In this document: positions 15,306 to 24,155 of the stretch, in pieces
Position numbering within the stretch: position 1 is the first letter of the stretch
How the letters are laid out: every line of letters starts with the position of its first letter
DNA from: Pelagovum sp. HNIBRBA483
Lineage (GTDB): Bacteria; Pseudomonadota; Alphaproteobacteria; Rhodobacterales; Rhodobacteraceae
DNA: 64,000 nt
Reading direction: 5' to 3'
NCBI RefSeq assembly: GCF_040931995.1
Contig: NZ_CP162412.1
Coordinates: 2,519,001 to 2,583,000 of the forward strand
Translations under genes and position numbers: made by a program
Notes under the pieces: generated by a model
Database searches by the model: none
What the model was told of the DNA's origin: nothing
The model's input: only the letters and a program-made list of their open reading frames with translations

Positions 15306-16295
15306 TCAAGCATTATTGGACTCAATGAACTGACGCACAATTTTCGCGGCTGCCTGCGCCGGCGCAGCCTCGCCCCGCGCTACCGCGCCCTCCTCCTGCG
15401 CCAAAACGGTCGCGAGGTTTGGATCTCGAACAAGTTCTTCAAGCAGTTGCGATCGCACTTCCTCAGAGAACCAATGCAATGCCTGCGCCTTGCGGGTCGT
15501 CTCCCATATTCCCTTTTCGCGCCGCCAATCGGCGAGAGCCTGAATTTCACCCCAGACCGCTTCCAGACCCTGCTCCTCGATAGCGGAAACGAGCAGCGCC
15601 TTGGGGAAGCCTTCAGGGTCTTGTGGTCGTTTCCTCAATAGTCGGAGCGCGCCAGAATAATCAGCGCACGTCCGTTGCGCCTGTGCGCGCAGATCCCCAT
15701 CCGCCTTATTGACCAAAATAAGATCTGCAATCTCCATTATGCCGCGCTTGACGCCCTGCAATTCGTCACCCCCAGCCGGAGCAAGCAAGAGCAGGAACAG
15801 GTCCGACATTTGGGCAACCATGGTTTCAGATTGGCCCACTCCGACTGTCTCGATCAAAATAACATCAAAGCCAGCCGCTTCACACAAATGCACCGCATCA
15901 CGCGTCCGCCGCGCGACGCCACCAAGCTGCGTTTGTGACGGAGAAGGGCGAATGAACGCATGTGGCTCACGCGAAAGCAGCGCCATGCGCGTTTTGTCTC
16001 CGAGGATCGAGCCGCCACTACGGCTGGATGAAGGATCGACGGCCAATACAGCGACCCGCAAACCCTGCCGGACAAGAAACAGACCGAAGCTCTCAATAAA
16101 TGTCGATTTCCCTACGCCGGGCGTGCCTGAGAGCCCGATCCTGAGTGCTTGGCGTCCTGTTCCACATGCTGCAAGCAAATCAAGGGCTTGCTGGCGATGA
16201 TCGGAACGCAAACTTTCAACGAGCGTAATCGCACGCGATAGCGCACGGCGGTCTCCGTTTCGGATTTTTTCAGCAATTGCGGCGAGTTCTTTCAT
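15306..16295 (-). CDS. meaB: Methylmalonyl-CoA mutase-associated GTPase MeaB (ArgK family)
   Basis: G3E-class GTPase that guards and reactivates adenosylcobalamin-dependent methylmalonyl-CoA mutase. 329 residues. Walker A GTPGVGKS (57-64), the switch region with ETVGVGQSE, and the base-recognition NKAD are visible; the C-terminal [14 protein letters not shown] helix and dimer arm fit MeaB. The start at 16295 ([15 protein letters not shown]) is the conserved N-terminus; the frame stays open to 16472 but that part overlaps the divergent helicase gene. No mutase gene is in the window. Works in the same propionate pathway as PrpE. Confidence 0.93.
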
Positions 16296-16379
16296 ACTTG
16301 CTTCATATCGTCTGTCCTGCGCATGTCCAGCCAAAGGGTTTAACTTGACGAGAACATCGAGCATATCAATTTGCAGTCC

Positions 16380-18779
16380 ATGACGCATTTTCCACATCAA
16401 ATAACCTCGTGGTTCACCGCGCAAGGTTGGGACGTACATCCCCACCAGCGCGCTGTCTTTGAAAATGCGCATGAGCGATCTGTCCTGCTAATCGCGCCCA
16501 CGGGTGGCGGAAAGACAATGGCGGGCTTCTTGCCGACTTTGGCAGAGTTACTGCACAATCAGCAAACCGGCCTTCACACAGTTTATGTCTCCCCCCTGAA
16601 AGCCCTCACAGCGGATATCCAAAGAAATCTGCTCAAACCTATCGAATTCCTTGGTCTTGATATCCGCGTCGAAGATCGGACGGGTGACACCTCGCAAACG
16701 ACCAAACGGCGCCAGCGGGTAGATCCCCCTCACATCTTGCTGACGACACCCGAAAGCCTCGCTCTCCTGTTATCCTACGAGGAAGCACCAAAAATATTCG
16801 CGACGGTGAGACGGGTTATCATCGACGAAGCCCACGCCCTCAGCGAAAGCAAACGCGGCGATCAACTGATGCTCGCACTCTCGCGGCTCCAGGCCATTTC
16901 GCCCCAGATGAGCCGGATCGCTCTGTCCGCCACCGTCGATCAACCAGAAGCGCTGGCGGCGGAGATTGCGCCGTCACCGGCCCAAACAAAAGTCATTTTC
17001 GCCGATCCCGGTCCCGCTCCCGACATTCGCATGCTGACCTCAGAGAACCGCGTGCCTTGGTCGGGCGGCGGGGGACGCCACGCGATTCCGGATATTCTCG
17101 ATGAAATCAGCCGACATCAGACGACACTGATTTTTCACAACACACGCGCACAGGCAGAAATCTTTTTCCACCATTTGTGGATGGCGAATGAAGATGATCT
17201 CCCAATCGGCATCCATCACGGAAGCCTGTCGAAATCCGCCAGGGCAAAGGTCGAACAGGCGATGGTCAACGGCCAAATGAGGGCCATCGTTTGCACGGGC
17301 TCGTTAGACCTCGGCATTGACTGGGGGAATGTAGATCTTGTCATTCAGGTGGGGGCACCCAAAAACATCAAGCGACTTGTTCAGCGGATTGGACGTGCAA
17401 ATCATCGCTACAACGCCCCTTCCAAAGCGATAATAGTACCCGCAAACCAGTTCGAAGTCGTGGAATGCATCGCTGCACTCGATGCCGTTAGGGACAGCGC
17501 GCTGGACGGAACAGCAAAAGCGGCGGGGCCATTGGATGTTCTCTGCCAACATATTCTGGTCCGCGCATGTTCGAGCCCTTTCGATGCGAATGACCTGTTC
17601 GAAGAGGTCACAACGGCCGGCGCGTATAAAGGTCTAGATCGAAAGGCATTTGACGATTGCCTAAACTTTTGCGCGACCGGCGGATATGCGCTCCGCGCTT
17701 ATGACAAGTGGAAGCGTCTGAGGCAGGATGATCACGGAAACTGGTCCCTCCGCGACCCGCGAACCGCCGCAATCATTCGCATGAATATCGGCACCATCCA
17801 AGACACTGACACCCTGAAGGTGAAGATGCGCGGTGGCGGACAGCCACTCGGTGAAGTCGAAGAGGCCTTTGCCGCGTCGCTCACACCTGGAGACACTTTC
17901 TTGATTGGCGGAAAGATTGTCCGCTATGACGCCTTGAAAGAACTCACAGTTCAGGTGAGTAGTTCAGCTTCGAAATCGCCAAAAGTAGCGGTATTCAACG
18001 GAACAAAGTTCGCTACATCTCTCCAGCTCTCAGAGGGAATATTGAAGATTCTCAATAATCCCGAGCGGGCTGATCTTCCGAAAAAAAGTAAAGAATGGCT
18101 AAAACTGCAGGCACAGTTTTCCAAAATCCCACAAGCAGCCGAATTACTCGTTGAGAGTTTCGAGCATGACGGCCGTCAGCACAACTGCCTCTACGGCTTC
18201 GCAGGTCGAAATGCCCAACAGACCCTCGGCCTGCTGTTGACACACCGGATGGAGCGAACGGGACTGGCCCCGCTTGGCTTCGTCGCGACTGACTATGCCA
18301 CTTTGATATGGGGTTTGGAGCGTGTTGAAGACTGGTCCAATCTGCTCTCCGATACTAACCTTCGTAGTGATCTGGAGGGCTGGTTGGCTGGTAATACGGT
18401 GATGAAACGCACCTTTCGTTCCGTCGCTACGATCTCCGGCCTGATCGAACGGAACAGTCCGCAGCAACGTAAGTCCGGGAAACAAGCCACATTCTCAAGC
18501 GATATCTTGTACGATACGTTGCGAAAATATGACCCTGAACATCTCTTGTTAAGGATGACCAGGTCCGAAGCTGTAGCTGGTCTTGTCGACTTTGGCAGGA
18601 TTGAAGAAATGCTGCACCGCACCAAAGGTGCCATAAGGCACATGCACCTCGAACGGGTCAGCCCACTTGCCGCACCGCTGCTGCTTGAAGCGGGGAAAAT
18701 TCCAATTCATGGTGAAGGGCGCGCACGCCTAGAAGAACGTGAAGCTGAAAAACTCCTTCGTGCGGCAGGACTCGGATGA
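16380..18779 (+). CDS. Ligase-associated DNA-damage-response DEXH-box helicase (Lhr-like)
   Basis: 799 residues. Superfamily 2 helicase motifs: Walker A APTGGGKT (about 39-46), DEAH box in [19 protein letters not shown] in [10 protein letters not shown], and motif VI in [11 protein letters not shown]. The C-terminal part (about 480-799) is the Lhr core-type extension. In proteobacteria this helicase is usually encoded with an ATP-dependent DNA ligase, a beta-CASP nuclease and the PdeM phosphoesterase; here only PdeM follows, overlapping or nearly so. Start: ATG 16380; a TTG at 16371 is in frame and neither has a good ribosome-binding site. Confidence 0.92.
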
Positions 18780-18816: not shown

Positions 18817-19464
18817 ATGACAGGCTATCGCTTTCAACTGAATGACACACTTCTCGAAGCCCAGAACAGTGGTGCGCTTTGGGTTGAGAGATTACAATTG
18901 CTTTGCGTTTCCGATCTGCACTTGGGCAAATCCGACAGGCTCGCCCGTAGTCGTGGCGTCCTGCTACCTCCGTATGAGACGATGGAAACGCTTAGTCGCC
19001 TAGCAGATGCCATAACGCTATTTGACCCCAAAATTGTGGTCTGTTTGGGCGATAGCTTCGATGATCCACTGGCCGAAAACAGCCTATCTGAAACAGAGCG
19101 CGATACCCTCGCAACTCTTCAGGCAGGGCGCGAATGGATTTGGATTGCCGGCAATCACGACCCCGCTCCTGTTTCAGTCGCAGGCCAAAGCAAAATTGCC
19201 TACTCGACGAGCGGGCTGACTTTCCGGCACGAAGCGACTGATAACGCTTTTGAAATTTCAGGGCATTTTCACCCCAAGCACAAAGTGCCTTCGGGGCGGC
19301 TCCGCCCGGCGTTCATTCATGACACCACCCGGCTCATAATGCCCGCTTTTGGTCTATATACTGGAGGACTGCCGGTGAAAGCCCCGGAACTACAAAAGTG
19401 GTTCCCGAGCGGTGGTATCGCCGTTCTATGCGGCGGCTCAAGGCCCCTTCCGGTCCCGTTCTGA
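18817..19464 (+). CDS. pdeM: Ligase-associated DNA damage response endonuclease PdeM
   Basis: 215 residues of the calcineurin-like metallophosphoesterase fold. Metal-site motifs in order: SDLHLGKS, CLGDSFDD, AGNHDP and SGHFHPKHK. This set is that of the PdeM partner in the helicase-ligase-nuclease DNA repair cluster. Starts at 18739 and 18802 (GTG) are in frame; I choose the ATG at 18817 because the protein then begins as the family does (short strand, then GALW, then SDLHLGK). Its end overlaps the convergent LytTR gene by 27 bases. Confidence 0.88.
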   Translation: MTGYRFQLNDTLLEAQNSGALWVERLQLLCVSDLHLGKSDRLARSRGVLLPPYETMETLSRLADAITLFDPKIVVCLGDSFDDPLAENSLSETERDTLATLQAGREWIWIAGNHDPAPVSVAGQSKIAYSTSGLTFRHEATDNAFEISGHFHPKHKVPSGRLRPAFIHDTTRLIMPAFGLYTGGLPVKAPELQKWFPSGGIAVLCGGSRPLPVPF

Positions 19465-20235
19465 GATACCAAAGTGCGCAACCAAGGCCGTGACAGTTTC
19501 GTGATATTTCTTGCCGACGGGTACGACGTCATTCGACGAAAGACGCACGATCCATTTCCCCTCGGATTTCTCAAAGTCTTTGATCGCGGAATTTGCAGCC
19601 CAATGCGAGCGATGCACCTGGGTACCTTCGACACCGTCCATCTCATCAATCGCATCAGACAGTCGCATTAACAAGCGATGGGTACTGCCATCATCGAGCC
19701 GAACAATCACATAGTGATCTTCGCTGCGGATATGGATGATGTTTGCCGTCGCGTCATCGGGCAACCTTTGTTTCAACCGGATAAGTTCGGGCCTGAACCC
19801 TGCAACGCTACCCGCAGATGACCCGTTCAAATCAAATAGAAGGATACGCCCAACTGTCAGAGCAACCCCAATGGCCAATACCAGAATGAACACTTTCTGG
19901 AAAAACGAAGGTGAAAGTGAAGCAACAGGAAGTACAACAGCACTGAAGCCAACGAATACAGGTGTACAGATGAGCGAAAACACAAGCAGCGTAAGCAGGT
20001 CACGCACCCAACGGGAGGACGACGAACCAAGAACTCCCTCTACAGATCGAGAAAGGATCAACGCGATCAGCGTACCCGCCGCACAAACTGCGCACCAGTA
20101 AGCGAGACGTACGGGCCAATCCAATGCCTGATAGGAGCCGAATGGCCCAGACACCCCAATAGCGGCGCCCGTGATCGTGGCGGCGGCCACAGCGCGCACA
20201 GGTCCTGCTTTTCGAAGAGACACTACTGATTGCAT
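19438..20235 (-). CDS. Membrane-anchored LytTR-domain transcriptional regulator
   Basis: About 265 residues. The N-terminal half carries about four membrane helices (near residues 12-32, 42-62, 75-105, 115-135); the C-terminal 110 residues form a LytTR DNA-binding domain, with IIHIRSEDHYVIVRLDDGSTHRLLMRLSDAIDEM and VHRSHWAANSAIKDFE as its core strands. The type couples a membrane sensor directly to DNA binding without a kinase. Start uncertain: ATG 20235 chosen, TTG 20268 possible. Downstream of folD by 88 bases on the same strand; 3' end overlaps pdeM. Confidence 0.85.
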   Translation of the reverse strand: MQSVVSLRKAGPVRAVAAATITGAAIGVSGPFGSYQALDWPVRLAYWCAVCAAGTLIALILSRSVEGVLGSSSSRWVRDLLTLLVFSLICTPVFVGFSAVVLPVASLSPSFFQKVFILVLAIGVALTVGRILLFDLNGSSAGSVAGFRPELIRLKQRLPDDATANIIHIRSEDHYVIVRLDDGSTHRLLMRLSDAIDEMDGVEGTQVHRSHWAANSAIKDFEKSEGKWIVRLSSNDVVPVGKKYHETVTALVAHFGISERDRKGP

Positions 20236-20323
20236 CAATTGTCTCAAGATGGTCCCCCGCCGCAACAAAATTTGCGTGTCCCCTACCCCATGAAGATAGG
20301 GGGCCCCGCAGAATTTTCTACCA

Positions 20324-21220
20324 CTATGCGGTTAGGCCCTCAGGTTCTGCCAGGTCGTTTGCGCGGCAGCAGGCGGTAAGTGTGTTAGCCAGAAGACAGG
20401 CAATGGTCATCGGCCCCACACCACCGGGAACGGGTGTTATGGCGCCGGCAACAGCGGCACAGCTTTCGTAGTGACAATCACCGACGAGACGCGCTTTGCC
20501 TTCGGCGCCTTCAATACGGTTAATACCAACGTCTATAACGGTCGCACCTGGCTTGATCCAATCTCCAGTAACCATTTCGGGGCGACCTACCGCGGCAACA
20601 ACAATATCAGCTTGGCGCACGACCTCAGGTAGATCCTTCGTGCGGCTATGTGCAATTGTCACTGTGCAGCTATCGCCGAGCAGCAATTGAGCCATAGGCT
20701 TGCCAACAATGTTCGAGCGGCCGACAACGACTGCACTAAGCCCCGACAGTGAACCGTGATGTTCACGCAGCATCATCAAGCACCCAAGCGGGGTACACGG
20801 GACCATGGATTTCTGTCCTGTACCGAGCAGACCGACATTGGAGATATGGAAGCCATCTACATCCTTGGCCGGATCGATGGAATTGATCACCAAATCACTG
20901 TCAAGGTGAGCAGGCAAAGGCAGTTGGACCAATATGCCATGCACATCTGGGTCATTATTCAGTTTCGCAATGAGCGCGAGGAGATCCGCCTCAGACGTAT
21001 CAGCGTCAAGCCTGTGCTCATATGAATTCATACCGACTTCAACAGTCTGTTTGCCTTTCGAGCGGACGTAAACTTGGCTCGCGGGATCTTCACCGACCAA
21101 TACAACGGCCAGACCGGGCGTGATCCCATTTTCGCTTTTCAGCTTAGTAACATGCGCCGCGACTTGCTCTCGCACACCTGCGGCAAATTTTTTGCCATCA
21201 ATAACCGTCGCACCCATCAT
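20324..21220 (-). CDS. folD: Bifunctional methylene-THF dehydrogenase / methenyl-THF cyclohydrolase (canonical FolD)
   Basis: Oxidises methylene-THF to methenyl-THF with NADP and hydrolyses that to formyl-THF. 298 residues. The three catalytic residues are intact: Tyr51 and Lys55 in YVRSK, Gln99 in VQLPLP and Asp122 in KDVDGFH; dinucleotide site [11 protein letters not shown] and the late [11 protein letters not shown] loop are present. GGAGG precedes a TGATGATG junction, so the start is one of two adjacent ATGs (21220 or 21217); the first overlaps the TGA of the upstream paralogue, implying coupling. Confidence 0.95.
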
Positions 21221-22101
21221 CAAACCTCCGTTTTAGCGTAAGCGTCGCTGTATGCTTCCATCTGAAGCCGCGTCGCATGAATTGCGTTGCGCATAAGAAC
21301 TGCAACAGTAACTGGCCCCACGCCTCCAGGCACCGGCGTCAACCATCCCGCTACCTCGGCACAAGACACGAAATCGGCGTCACCGACTGTCTTACCGTCG
21401 ACACGGTTGATGCCGATATCAATCAAAGCAGCACCAGGTTTGATCATGTCGCCAGTGACCAAACCGGGTTTACCAACAGCGACAAAAACCGCATCCGCCG
21501 CCCGCGAATGCATAGCCACGGATCGTGTCATGTGGTGGCAGACCGTGACCGTTGCCCCAAGCCCCATAAGCAGGAACGCGATCGGCTTACCGACAATCTC
21601 AGAATGACCGATGACCGTAACGTCCAGCCCTTCGATCTTCAGGGGCAATGTCTTGAGGAGCTCAACGGCCGCAACAGCGGTGCATGGTCCCAATTGCAGA
21701 TCGTTATAAACAATATTACCGATCGATGCGGGGTGCATCCCTTCCACGTCCTTTAAGGGATGGACGGCTTTTTGAAGGGTCTTGACTGGAATATGTGAAG
21801 GGAGTGGACGTTGAACGATAATCCCGTTCACACGCGGATCAGCGTTAAGGCCTTGCAACACACCAACGAGTTGCTCCATTGAAATGTCATTCGGGTAATT
21901 GCGTGCCTCGAATTGCACGCCTGCGCTTTCGGCGCTTCGCTGTTGGTTCCTGACATAAATTTCAGATGCCGCAGCATCGCCAACGGAGATCGACACCAAC
22001 CTCGGCTGCCAACCCTTCGCTGCGAGTTCCGAAGCCTCTTTGGCAATCTCCTGCCGCATTTCGGCGGCAATCGACTTACCGTCTATCAGTGCAGCGCGCA
22101 T
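21220..22101 (-). CDS. FolD paralogue with altered catalytic residues
   Basis: 293 residues, FolD fold throughout (dinucleotide site [12 protein letters not shown]-terminal [11 protein letters not shown]). At the active site Tyr49 is kept but the catalytic Lys is Gln53 (YVRNQ), and the folate-binding Asp is Glu120 (KDVEGMH); Gln97 is kept (VQRPLP). In the human enzyme Lys-to-Gln at this position is, as I recall, reported to abolish cyclohydrolase but spare dehydrogenase activity, so this copy may be a dehydrogenase only or have another role. It overlaps chorismate mutase (TAATG) and canonical folD. Confidence 0.9.
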
Positions 22102-22412
22102 TATTTCGCCCTCTTGTCAGATTCGCCCAAAACCCGCTCTTCGCGCGAAATGGACCACTCGATAAGTTGCCTCCAAAGTGTCTCCGCAAACTCGGGATCG
22201 AACCCCTTCGAATCTGCGTGTACCCGAACCAGTTCGACGACTTCTTCAACCCTTTCGGAAATACGGGCAGGCAACCCAGCGGCAGCTTTAATTTCAATCG
22301 CCCGGTCAATCATTTCGGCTCGTTTCGCCAGAAGCTCGATCAGGCCCAAATCAATTCGATCAATCTCAGCACGCAATTCCGCCATTGAGGCGATCTGTTC
22401 GGTGCTTTTCAT
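22101..22412 (-). CDS. Chorismate mutase, AroQ class (possibly PchB-like)
   Basis: 103 residues, all helical. Residues aligned with the AroQ active site are Arg14 (ELRAEID), Arg31 (LLAKRAE), Lys42 (EIKAAAG) and Arg54; but the position of the catalytic Glu next to that Arg is Val55 (ERVEEV), as I recall for the isochorismate pyruvate-lyase PchB rather than for classical mutases. Function could be chorismate mutase (tyrosine/phenylalanine synthesis) or a related lyase. It sits between fhs and the two folD genes, an unexpected place for an aromatic enzyme. Confidence 0.82.
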   Translation of the reverse strand: MKSTEQIASMAELRAEIDRIDLGLIELLAKRAEMIDRAIEIKAAAGLPARISERVEEVVELVRVHADSKGFDPEFAETLWRQLIEWSISREERVLGESDKRAK

Positions 22413-22478: not shown

Positions 22479-24155
22479 TCAGAAGAGGCCTTCGATATCG
22501 CCATCAGCATTTAGCTTGATGTTTTCTGCGGAAGGAACCCGCGGCAGACCGGGCATGGTCATGATCTCACCGCAGATCACTACAACGAAGCCAGCACCAG
22601 CGGACAGGCGTACTTCTCTTACCGGTACAGTGTGCCCAGTCGGCGCACCACGCCAATTCGGGTCTGTCGAGAAGCTGTATTGGGTTTTTGCCATGCAGAT
22701 CGGGAGGTTCCCGTAGCCCTGATCTTCCCACTCACGCAACTGGTCGCGGATCTTTTTGTCAGCGATAACTTCATCGGCATGGTAGATCCGCTTTGCGATC
22801 GTATCGATCTTTTGGAACAACGGCATGTCGTCCGGATAGAGCGGCGCGAAGTTGCCCATGCCTGCATCAGCGATTTCTGCAACCCGCGTGGCAAGATCGA
22901 CCGTGCCTTCCGAACCTTTGGCCCAGTGCTGGCAGAGAATTGCCTCAGAACCCTGCTCGGCAACGTAGGCCTTTACCGCTTCAACTTCGGCGTCGGTGTC
23001 AGTCACGAAGTGGTTGATCGCAACGACAACCGGCACACCGAAGGATTTCACATTGGCGATATGGCGACCAAGGTTCGGGCAGCCTTTCTTGACCGCGTCC
23101 ACGTTTTCCGCGCCAAGGTCAGCCTTGGCGACGCCACCATTCATCTTCATGGCGCGAACGGTCGCGACGAGAACAACCGCATCAGGTGCCAAGCCAGCCT
23201 TGCGGCACTTGATGTTCATGAACTTTTCAGCCCCGAGGTCAGCACCGAAACCAGCCTCAGTCACCACATAATCTGCGATTTTGAGGGCAGTCGTCGTTGC
23301 CGTTACCGAGTTACAGCCGTGTGCGATGTTGGCAAACGGACCGCCGTGAACGAAGGCAGGGTTGTTTTCCAAGGTTTGCACGAGGTTCGGTTGCATCGCG
23401 TCTTTCAGCAGTACAGTCATCGCGCCATCCGCCTTGATGTCGCGGCAGTACACCGGCGTGCGATCACGGCGGTAGGCTACGATCATGTCGCCAAGGCGGC
23501 GCTGGAGATCTTCGAGGTCTTTGGCAAGACAGAGGATCGCCATAACTTCGGAAGCAACCGTAATGTCGAAGCCTGCCTCGCGCGGGAAGCCGTTTGCGAC
23601 GCCACCAAGCGACACGTTGATCTGACGGAGTGCCCGGTCATTCATATCGACCACGCGCCGCCAAGCCACGCGGCGAATATCAATCTCCAGCTCGTTGCCC
23701 CAGTAGATATGGTTGTCGATCATCGCGGACAGCAGGTTGTGTGCCGACGTGATCGCGTGGAAGTCGCCGGTGAAGTGAAGGTTCATGTCCTCCATCGGCA
23801 CAACTTGTGCATAGCCACCACCAGCGGCGCCGCCCTTCATACCAAAGTTCGGCCCGAGCGATGCCTCGCGAATACAGATCGCCGCTTTCTTGCCGATACG
23901 GTTCAGACCGTCGCCAAGGCCAACGGTCGTTGTCGTTTTGCCTTCCCCAGCAGGGGTTGGGTTGATCGCTGTGACGAGGATCAATTTGCCGTCTGGACGA
24001 TCCTGCACGCTATCGATGAACGCTTGGCTAAGCTTCGCTTTATCATGGCCGTAGGGAAGAAGATCGTCGCTACCGATCCCGAGTTTGGCGCCAATTTCTT
24101 GGATGGGTTTCTTATTCGCGGCGCGGGCAATTTCGATGTCGGTCTTGAAGCTCAT
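22479..24155 (-). CDS. fhs: Formate--tetrahydrofolate ligase
   Basis: ATP-dependent formation of 10-formyl-THF from formate, or in reverse ATP gain when oxidising one-carbon units. 558 residues, the usual length. The nucleotide loop [18 protein letters not shown] (67-84), the conserved [18 protein letters not shown] region and the C-terminal SAGAGFVV are seen. The start [11 protein letters not shown] at 24155 is preceded by AGGGA; an in-frame ATG at 24185 is less likely. First gene of the C1 operon fhs-CM-folD2-folD. Confidence 0.96.

Follow-up and report, generated by a model that had tools for sequence, protein, structure and literature searches.

The folD2 operon

We analyzed a window of 64,000 nucleotides from Pelagovum sp. 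HNIBRBA483 (contig NZ_CP162412.1). Four genes follow one another on its minus strand, in the order fhs, a chorismate-mutase-like gene, folD2 and a canonical folD:

22479..24155, minus strand: fhs, formate--tetrahydrofolate ligase (ATG at 24155-24153; PF01268, 901.6 bits; NF010030, 940.1 bits vs a cut-off of 652)
22101..22412, minus strand: AroQ-class chorismate-mutase-like (CM) protein, 103 aa (PF01817, 75.1 bits; TIGR01803, 74.0 vs a cut-off of 73.35)
21220..22101, minus strand: folD2, variant FolD with Gln53, Arg98, Glu120, His166 and His190 (open reading frame, Pfam domains and alignments)
20324..21220, minus strand: canonical folD, bifunctional methylene-THF dehydrogenase/cyclohydrolase (PF00763, 147.3 bits; PF02882, 219.7 bits; NF010785, 509.2 bits vs a cut-off of 396)

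The folD2 open reading frame starts with ATG, encodes 293 residues and has no internal stops. It shares one base with the gene on either side: in TAATG at 22101, base 22101 is common to the TAA of the chorismate-mutase-like gene and the ATG of folD2, and in TGATG at 21220, base 21220 is common to the folD2 TGA and a folD ATG. A first-pass annotation of this DNA had described two complete, overlapping FolD genes in one operon, and both open reading frames and the shared stop/start bases are indeed present. Across the window genome (G000, 3.0 Mb) PF02882 matches folD2 and folD, plus one weak partial match (20.2 bits, below the cut-off); no third full FolD carrying PF02882 was found there.

Of the 80 named loci described below, 51 have the chorismate-mutase-like gene on one side of folD2 or the other, and the remaining loci have no match to it. 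In an alignment of 52 rows its Arg14, Arg31, Lys42 and Arg54 are kept wherever a row covers them, and its median dN/dS of 0.296 (302 pairs) is about twice that of its operon neighbors. A second CM_2 gene is found elsewhere in the window genome. Directly downstream of folD (19438-20268, minus strand), a gene encodes a protein whose C-terminal domain is of the LytTR DNA-binding type and whose long N-terminal portion, on visual inspection, looks embedded in the membrane; further along, at 15306-16472 (minus strand), is a MeaB-type GTPase (methylmalonyl-CoA mutase chaperone; 449 bits vs a cut-off of 329).

FolD2 is an altered member of the FolD superfamily

FolD2 belongs to the FolD superfamily (PF00763/PF02882): both domains score above their cut-offs (118.9 bits vs 32.8 for PF00763; 185.1 bits vs 27 for PF02882) and the predicted model has the FolD/MTHFD fold. 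Among the matches listed (25 of 30 models), it falls below every curated NCBIfam FolD cut-off, the best being 300.7 vs 421; the neighboring canonical FolD passes NF010785.

The first-pass annotation had noted that FolD2 keeps Tyr49 and Gln97 and has Gln53 where the catalytic Lys would be and Glu120 at the place of the folate-binding Asp, and all four residues were read directly in the translation. Tested against the marks of a bifunctional FolD, FolD2 thus has the active-site Tyr and Gln and lacks the Lys of YxxxK and the Asp of DVDG. For the canonical FolD the residues named earlier are right; the numbers given were one higher than ours and fit the upstream ATG at 21220 rather than the inner ATG at 21217, from which we count Tyr50, Lys54, Gln98 and Asp121. 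Four further fixed differences (Arg98, Met122, His166 and His190) had been missed. The five codons whose residues are invariant are as follows:

21943..21945, minus strand: Gln53 codon, replacing the catalytic Lys (YxxxK reads YVRNQ); invariant, 141/141
21808..21810, minus strand: Arg98 codon, replacing Leu (VQRPLP vs VQLPLP); invariant, 141/141
21742..21744, minus strand: Glu120 codon, replacing the folate-binding Asp (KDVEG vs KDVDG); invariant, 141/141
21604..21606, minus strand: His166 codon, replacing Arg of GRS (2'-phosphate position); invariant, 141/141
21532..21534, minus strand: His190 codon, replacing Ser of HS (2'-phosphate position); invariant, 141/141

The key substrate and catalysis residues of human MTHFD1 are Tyr52, Lys56, Gln100, Leu101, Asp125, Gly273 and Gly276, and an Arg/His/Ser set binds the NADP 2'-phosphate (PMC3368264). 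Among the seven, Lys56, Leu101 and Asp125 are changed in FolD2 and Tyr52 and Gln100 are kept; in the 2'-phosphate set, Arg and Ser have both become His. Because catalytic and 2'-phosphate positions are both substituted, the catalytic pocket and the cofactor site have moved together, a wider change than the first-pass annotation saw. Ala and Arg occupy the two 2'-phosphate positions in the aligned sequence of E. coli FolD, whose cofactor is NADP+ (PMC6443876), so the FolD2 His changes are no proof of NAD use.

FolD2 forms a fixed clade in Alphaproteobacteria

Gln53, Arg98, Glu120, His166 and His190 are kept in all 141 distinct FolD2 orthologues, as are Tyr49 and Gln97; Met122 is Leu in three of the 141. 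The canonical proteins have Lys and Asp in 117 of 117 cases, and at the His166 position they have Arg in 113 of 117 and Ala or Thr in the other four. Rows were assigned to FolD2 or to canonical FolD by the better match to the two window proteins. The 141 comprise 143 sequences minus L138 and L191 (the same gene seen twice), and the set leaves out L134, whose folD2 is split, rows shorter than 230 aa and identical sequences. Fixation of the Gln and Glu in an orthologous clade, which had been proposed as a check, is therefore seen throughout, and an orthologue with Lys and Asp restored, proposed as a refutation, was seen in none of the 141.

In a search of 395 genomes of the family, 48 had a FolD2-type match at 57-100% identity, and the others reached at most 46% among the matches listed. 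The best 80 named loci include Marivivens, Pararhodobacter, Pelagimonas, Shimia, Nioella, Aliiroseovarius, Gemmobacter, Tabrizicola and Rhodobacter. Profile scores across 337 genomes of Alphaproteobacteria fell into two sharply separated peaks, with 22 matches in 21 genomes at 453-549 bits and the next match at 284 bits. In a sample of 299 Pseudomonadota genomes, 15 had FolD2 (465-549 bits), all of them Alphaproteobacteria; FolD2 was not found outside that class in this sample, the best non-alphaproteobacterial matches reaching no more than 298 bits. Taking the class and phylum samples together, FolD2 ranges over Rhodobacteraceae and 11 other alphaproteobacterial family groups. The link to marine compounds drawn earlier is probably too narrow, as the clade also occurs in Gemmobacter, Tabrizicola and Rhodobacter, whose habitats we take to count against a solely marine clade, and in genomes of 6-7 Mb outside Rhodobacteraceae.

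A tree was built from 98 rows, three of which repeat a gene of the same genome as a second view or a copy. In it the 63 FolD2 rows make up one side of a branch that has an SH-aLRT of 100 and a long stem (1.01 + 1.52 changes per column, midpoint root). On this sequence evidence FolD2 is a distinct, fixed clade and not a decayed copy. A one-genome oddity is ruled out by the 141 orthologues.

Two loci, L105 and L108, come from metagenome-assembled genomes titled Exiguobacterium and Hyphomicrobiales; both loci look like Rhodobacteraceae and are possibly mislabelled or misbinned, and L108 was also included in the tree. In L134 (G170) folD2 is broken into two frames near residue 90 by a frameshift or a sequencing error.

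FolD2 is under purifying selection and its predicted fold is intact

Median dN/dS (Nei-Gojobori) is 0.147 for FolD2 and 0.157 for FolD over 696 non-independent pairs with FolD2 dS below 0.9, and 0.151 for Fhs (648 pairs). FolD2 is under purifying selection like FolD; the relaxed selection (dN/dS near 1) that had been named as a counter-sign is absent. A pseudogene, or a gene under relaxed selection, is ruled out, as FolD2 dN/dS is like that of its operon neighbors.

The AlphaFold2 model of FolD2 (pLDDT 92.2, pTM 0.89) suggests an intact fold. It matches known structures with Z scores of 38.9 to 6ape and 38.6 to 9ise, with human MTHFD1 and bacterial FolD at ~38, and of 30.1 to yeast 1edz. Tyr49, Gln97 and the PGGVGP loop are invariant in a 36-row alignment.

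That FolD2 is a redundant or decaying duplicate with no special role is scarcely credible: the split L134 orthologue would speak for it, but dN/dS is as low as that of the neighbors, the substitutions are invariant, and the clade is deep, spans 12 family groups and is kept in a genome of 1.2 Mb.

The folD2 neighborhood includes C1 genes at part of the loci

Among the 80 named loci, the order is fhs-CM-folD2-folD in 45, fhs-folD2-folD in 28 and fhs-folD2-CM-folD in four; the rest are CM-folD2-folD with no fhs match in two (one of these contigs, L096, starts inside the cluster) and fhs-folD2 in one. The arrangement fhs-folD2-folD, with or without the chorismate-mutase-like gene, is thus present in 77 of 80, and an fhs match in 78 of 80. 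A different order, fhs-folD-folD2, is found in another Rhodobacteraceae FolD2 lineage and in one genome outside the family. The tree sets the lineages with this order far from the first, so folD2 may have joined an fhs-folD locus more than once. For many FolD2 genomes outside Rhodobacteraceae, the surroundings of folD2 yielded no folD. One genome (G243) carries the fhs-CM-folD2-folD cluster twice (L135 and L136), ~290 kb apart and with matching gene positions; between the two stretches the base-by-base register is lost.

Several loci place folD2 beside genes of methyl-group metabolism. Besides Ponticoccus, eight genomes have a TMAO demethylase gene (tdm) near folD2, and its product is 76-97% identical to the protein annotated in Ponticoccus. 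In L187 (a 1.2 Mb genome) folD2 is near sarcosine-oxidase alpha- and beta-type genes and two small open reading frames of soxD/soxG size. L169 and L128 have a set of glutamine amidotransferase, glutamate-synthase-like and glutamine-synthetase-like genes that, by sequence, looks like mgsABC-gmaS. L185 and L186 have a formate-dehydrogenase-alpha-type molybdoenzyme, 62% identical to the annotated Ponticoccus fdhF, and in Paracoccus aminovorans a BCCT transporter and a GlxA regulator are close by. A Ponticoccus alexandrii plasmid carries formate dehydrogenase, fhs, folD, folD2 and tdm genes and, further on, genes for CoA ester lyase, malate-CoA ligase and PEP carboxylase together with glyA. A C1 marker lies near folD2 in 24 of 40 non-core loci (none in the other 16), or in 21 of 40 after dropping L137, L175 and L182, where the tally rests on the loci's own markers or on weak hits; the marker proteins were drawn from the same loci as were tested, L131 and L138 are one plasmid stretch, and the tally left out the flanks of eight f150 loci (L192-L199).

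FolD2 genomes nearly always have a second FolD match and are rich in GCV_T proteins

Counted at the level of search matches, a second hit to the FolD2 query occurs in 47 of the 48 family-sample genomes with FolD2 and in all 21 from the class sample; the exception is G138, whose contig starts at folD2. With a second FolD-family match in nearly all genomes, FolD2 is an addition and not a replacement.

Comparisons with genomes lacking FolD2 used 70 genomes that were hand-picked roughly in listing order, neither random nor matched by kinship, and some genomes were skipped, among them most small ones outside Rhodobacteraceae. The fhs gene is present in 73 of 75 FolD2 genomes, three of which (G127, G371 and G855) have it only in incomplete or fragmentary form. 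Of the genomes without FolD2, 53 of 70 have it. The two FolD2 genomes with no fhs match, G138 and G170, have contigs broken at the operon. Inside Rhodobacteraceae the difference is weak (46/48 with FolD2 vs 36/40 without), and outside it fhs is found in 27 of 27 genomes with FolD2 vs 17 of 30 without (Fisher p 6e-5; 8 of these 27 FolD2 genomes belong to one genus), mostly on another contig or far from folD2.

GCV_T (folate-binding aminomethyltransferase) proteins were counted at E <=1e-30, a count that includes glycine cleavage T proteins. Outside Rhodobacteraceae the median is 14 in the 27 genomes with FolD2 vs 2 in the 30 without (p 1.5e-9; p 1.3e-5 with one value per FolD2 family), and inside it 12.5 in 48 genomes vs 8 in 40 (p 1.6e-4). 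Single genomes depart from this pattern: G445 (1.2 Mb) has FolD2 and only three GCV_T proteins, and as many as 20 occur in some genomes that lack FolD2. The window genome has 16 strong GCV_T proteins, and ten of the twelve best lie in open frames longer than 800 aa, which suggests an extensive repertoire of folate-dependent demethylases.

A proposed role for FolD2

Published mutants bear on the catalytic substitutions. E. coli FolD K54N keeps ~19% of its dehydrogenase activity with undetectable cyclohydrolase activity, and its authors state that methenyl-THF hydrolysis can be spontaneous (PMC5688156); the lost cyclohydrolase and the spontaneous hydrolysis together fit FolD2 leaving the second step to FolD. 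Bombyx mori K53A keeps both activities (cyclohydrolase kcat/Km 0.097 vs 0.13; PMC6443876), so loss of the Lys alone is no proof of cyclohydrolase loss. At the Asp position, no kcat/Km for methylene-THF could be measured in Bombyx mori D120A, and E. coli FolD mutated at Asp121 is stated to retain 0.17% of this value (PMC6443876). The human Lys-to-Gln result mentioned in the first-pass annotation, reportedly leaving dehydrogenase activity, was not found under K56Q in the open-licence literature.

In our assessment the chances are evenly balanced that FolD2 is an alphaproteobacterial FolD subfamily that serves dissimilatory C1 metabolism as a dedicated dehydrogenase of 5,10-methylene-THF. Folate-dependent demethylases (for sarcosine, dimethylglycine, TMAO, N-methylglutamate and similar compounds) would load methylene groups onto THF, and FolD2, with a cyclohydrolase activity that would be weak or absent, would oxidize methylene-THF to methenyl-THF, possibly using NAD+ in place of NADP+. 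The next product, 10-formyl-THF, would come from canonical FolD or from spontaneous hydrolysis, Fhs running in reverse would yield formate and ATP, and formate dehydrogenase would finish the route. The C1 oxidation route with fhs proposed earlier agrees with the genome context, in which the loci, fhs and the GCV_T proteins point to methyl-group oxidation. Dehydrogenase-only activity, the cofactor and the direction are what we infer for FolD2. The earlier interpretation, a pair splitting the two FolD steps, gains from the fixed residues, the unrelaxed selection, the methyl-oxidation context and E. coli K54N, but Bombyx K53A goes against a simple Lys rule.

More specifically, FolD2 might be a dehydrogenase-only, NAD+-linked bacterial methylene-THF dehydrogenase subfamily, with the FolD reaction split between two paralogues and NADH drawn without disturbing the NADP-linked FolD. 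We advance this only tentatively, with the chances somewhat against it, and an NAD+ preference would be a guess from the residues. If FolD2 does split the reaction, alphaproteobacteria with many folate-dependent demethylases would draw NADH from methyl groups, and an altered FolD in 12 family groups would mean that the methylene step is divided or uses another cofactor, changing the NADH/NADPH balance of the pathway. THF-linked methyl oxidation (of glycine betaine, TMAO and methylamines) feeds the energy metabolism of marine and other bacteria. FolD2 would also offer naturally occurring, coordinated changes in the active site (Lys/Gln, Leu/Arg, Asp/Glu) with which dehydrogenase chemistry could be separated from cyclohydrolase chemistry; the enzyme family is under study as a drug target.

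It is unlikely that FolD2 is still bifunctional, with Arg98 making up for the positive charge of the missing Lys53 and the substitutions tuning only kinetics or cofactor use. Arg98 is as invariant as Gln53 (141/141) and sits at one of the seven key positions, human Leu101 (PMC3368264), and Bombyx K53A shows that cyclohydrolase can survive loss of the Lys (PMC6443876). E. coli K54N, however, has no detectable cyclohydrolase (PMC5688156), and a full duplicate would not require the second FolD-family match that is kept in 47/48 and 21/21 genomes.

We think it decidedly unlikely that FolD2 works on another substrate form or reaction, such as some other folate adduct or methylene-THF bound within a demethylase complex. 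The joint change of Gln53, Arg98, Glu120 and Met122 would suit such a role, the exchange of Asp for Glu where the pterin binds could change the folate pocket, and FolD2 genomes have more GCV_T proteins; but Tyr49, Gln97 and the PGGVGP loop do not vary across the 36-row alignment, and those neighbors that are C1 genes depend on the methylene-to-formyl step.

A mainly regulatory or structural FolD2, forming a hetero-oligomer with FolD as also raised in the first-pass annotation, seems improbable. Such a partnership would fit two genes that overlap in one operon and the second FolD-family match in nearly all FolD2 genomes, but not the many genomes outside Rhodobacteraceae with no folD found near folD2, nor the retention of Tyr49 and Gln97 in 141 of 141 proteins, as expected for an enzyme.

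Comparison with known systems

The dedicated dehydrogenase proposed here has a precedent in yeast Mtd1, a methylene-THF dehydrogenase that is without cyclohydrolase and is NAD+ specific. The yeast structure (1edz) has the same fold as the FolD2 model (Z 30.1) but is more distant than bacterial FolD (phmmer E 3e-12 vs 1e-72 for a bacterial FolD) and is the weakest of 27 PDB sequence matches to FolD2, so that FolD2 is no closer kin to Mtd1 than to bacterial FolD. The FolD2 residues would be compatible with an NAD+-specific dehydrogenase of the Mtd1 kind. With canonical FolD/MTHFD, FolD2 shares the two domains, a similar length, the fold (Z ~38), Tyr49, Gln97 and the PGGVGP loop, and it differs in Lys to Gln53, Leu to Arg98, Asp to Glu120, Arg to His166 and Ser to His190.

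Extra FolD copies have been described before. Paracoccus aminophilus has three folD-purU loci in methylotrophy clusters, with extra FolD tied to methylene-THF oxidation (PMC4543880); unlike FolD2, with which we compare them by description, these paralogues are presented as ordinary FolD coupled to PurU. Arthrobacter 31Y has a second FolD of 32% identity (PMC5023230). In Ruegeria pomeroyi, oxidation of glycine betaine methyl groups via THF needs Fhs, and FolD is treated there as a single bifunctional step (PMC4744692); the central step of THF-linked methyl oxidation is likewise given as one bifunctional FolD (PMC4744692, PMC3160333). The evolution of the FolD family has been surveyed across life (PMC11064299). 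No description of the FolD2 clade or its residues was found in the open-licence literature, including the accessible portions of PMC11064299, PMC4543880, PMC5023230 and PMC4744692. Set beside the accessible text of these sources, FolD2 is an undescribed variant of the known FolD family, in which extra FolD copies and Fhs-linked methyl oxidation are already known.
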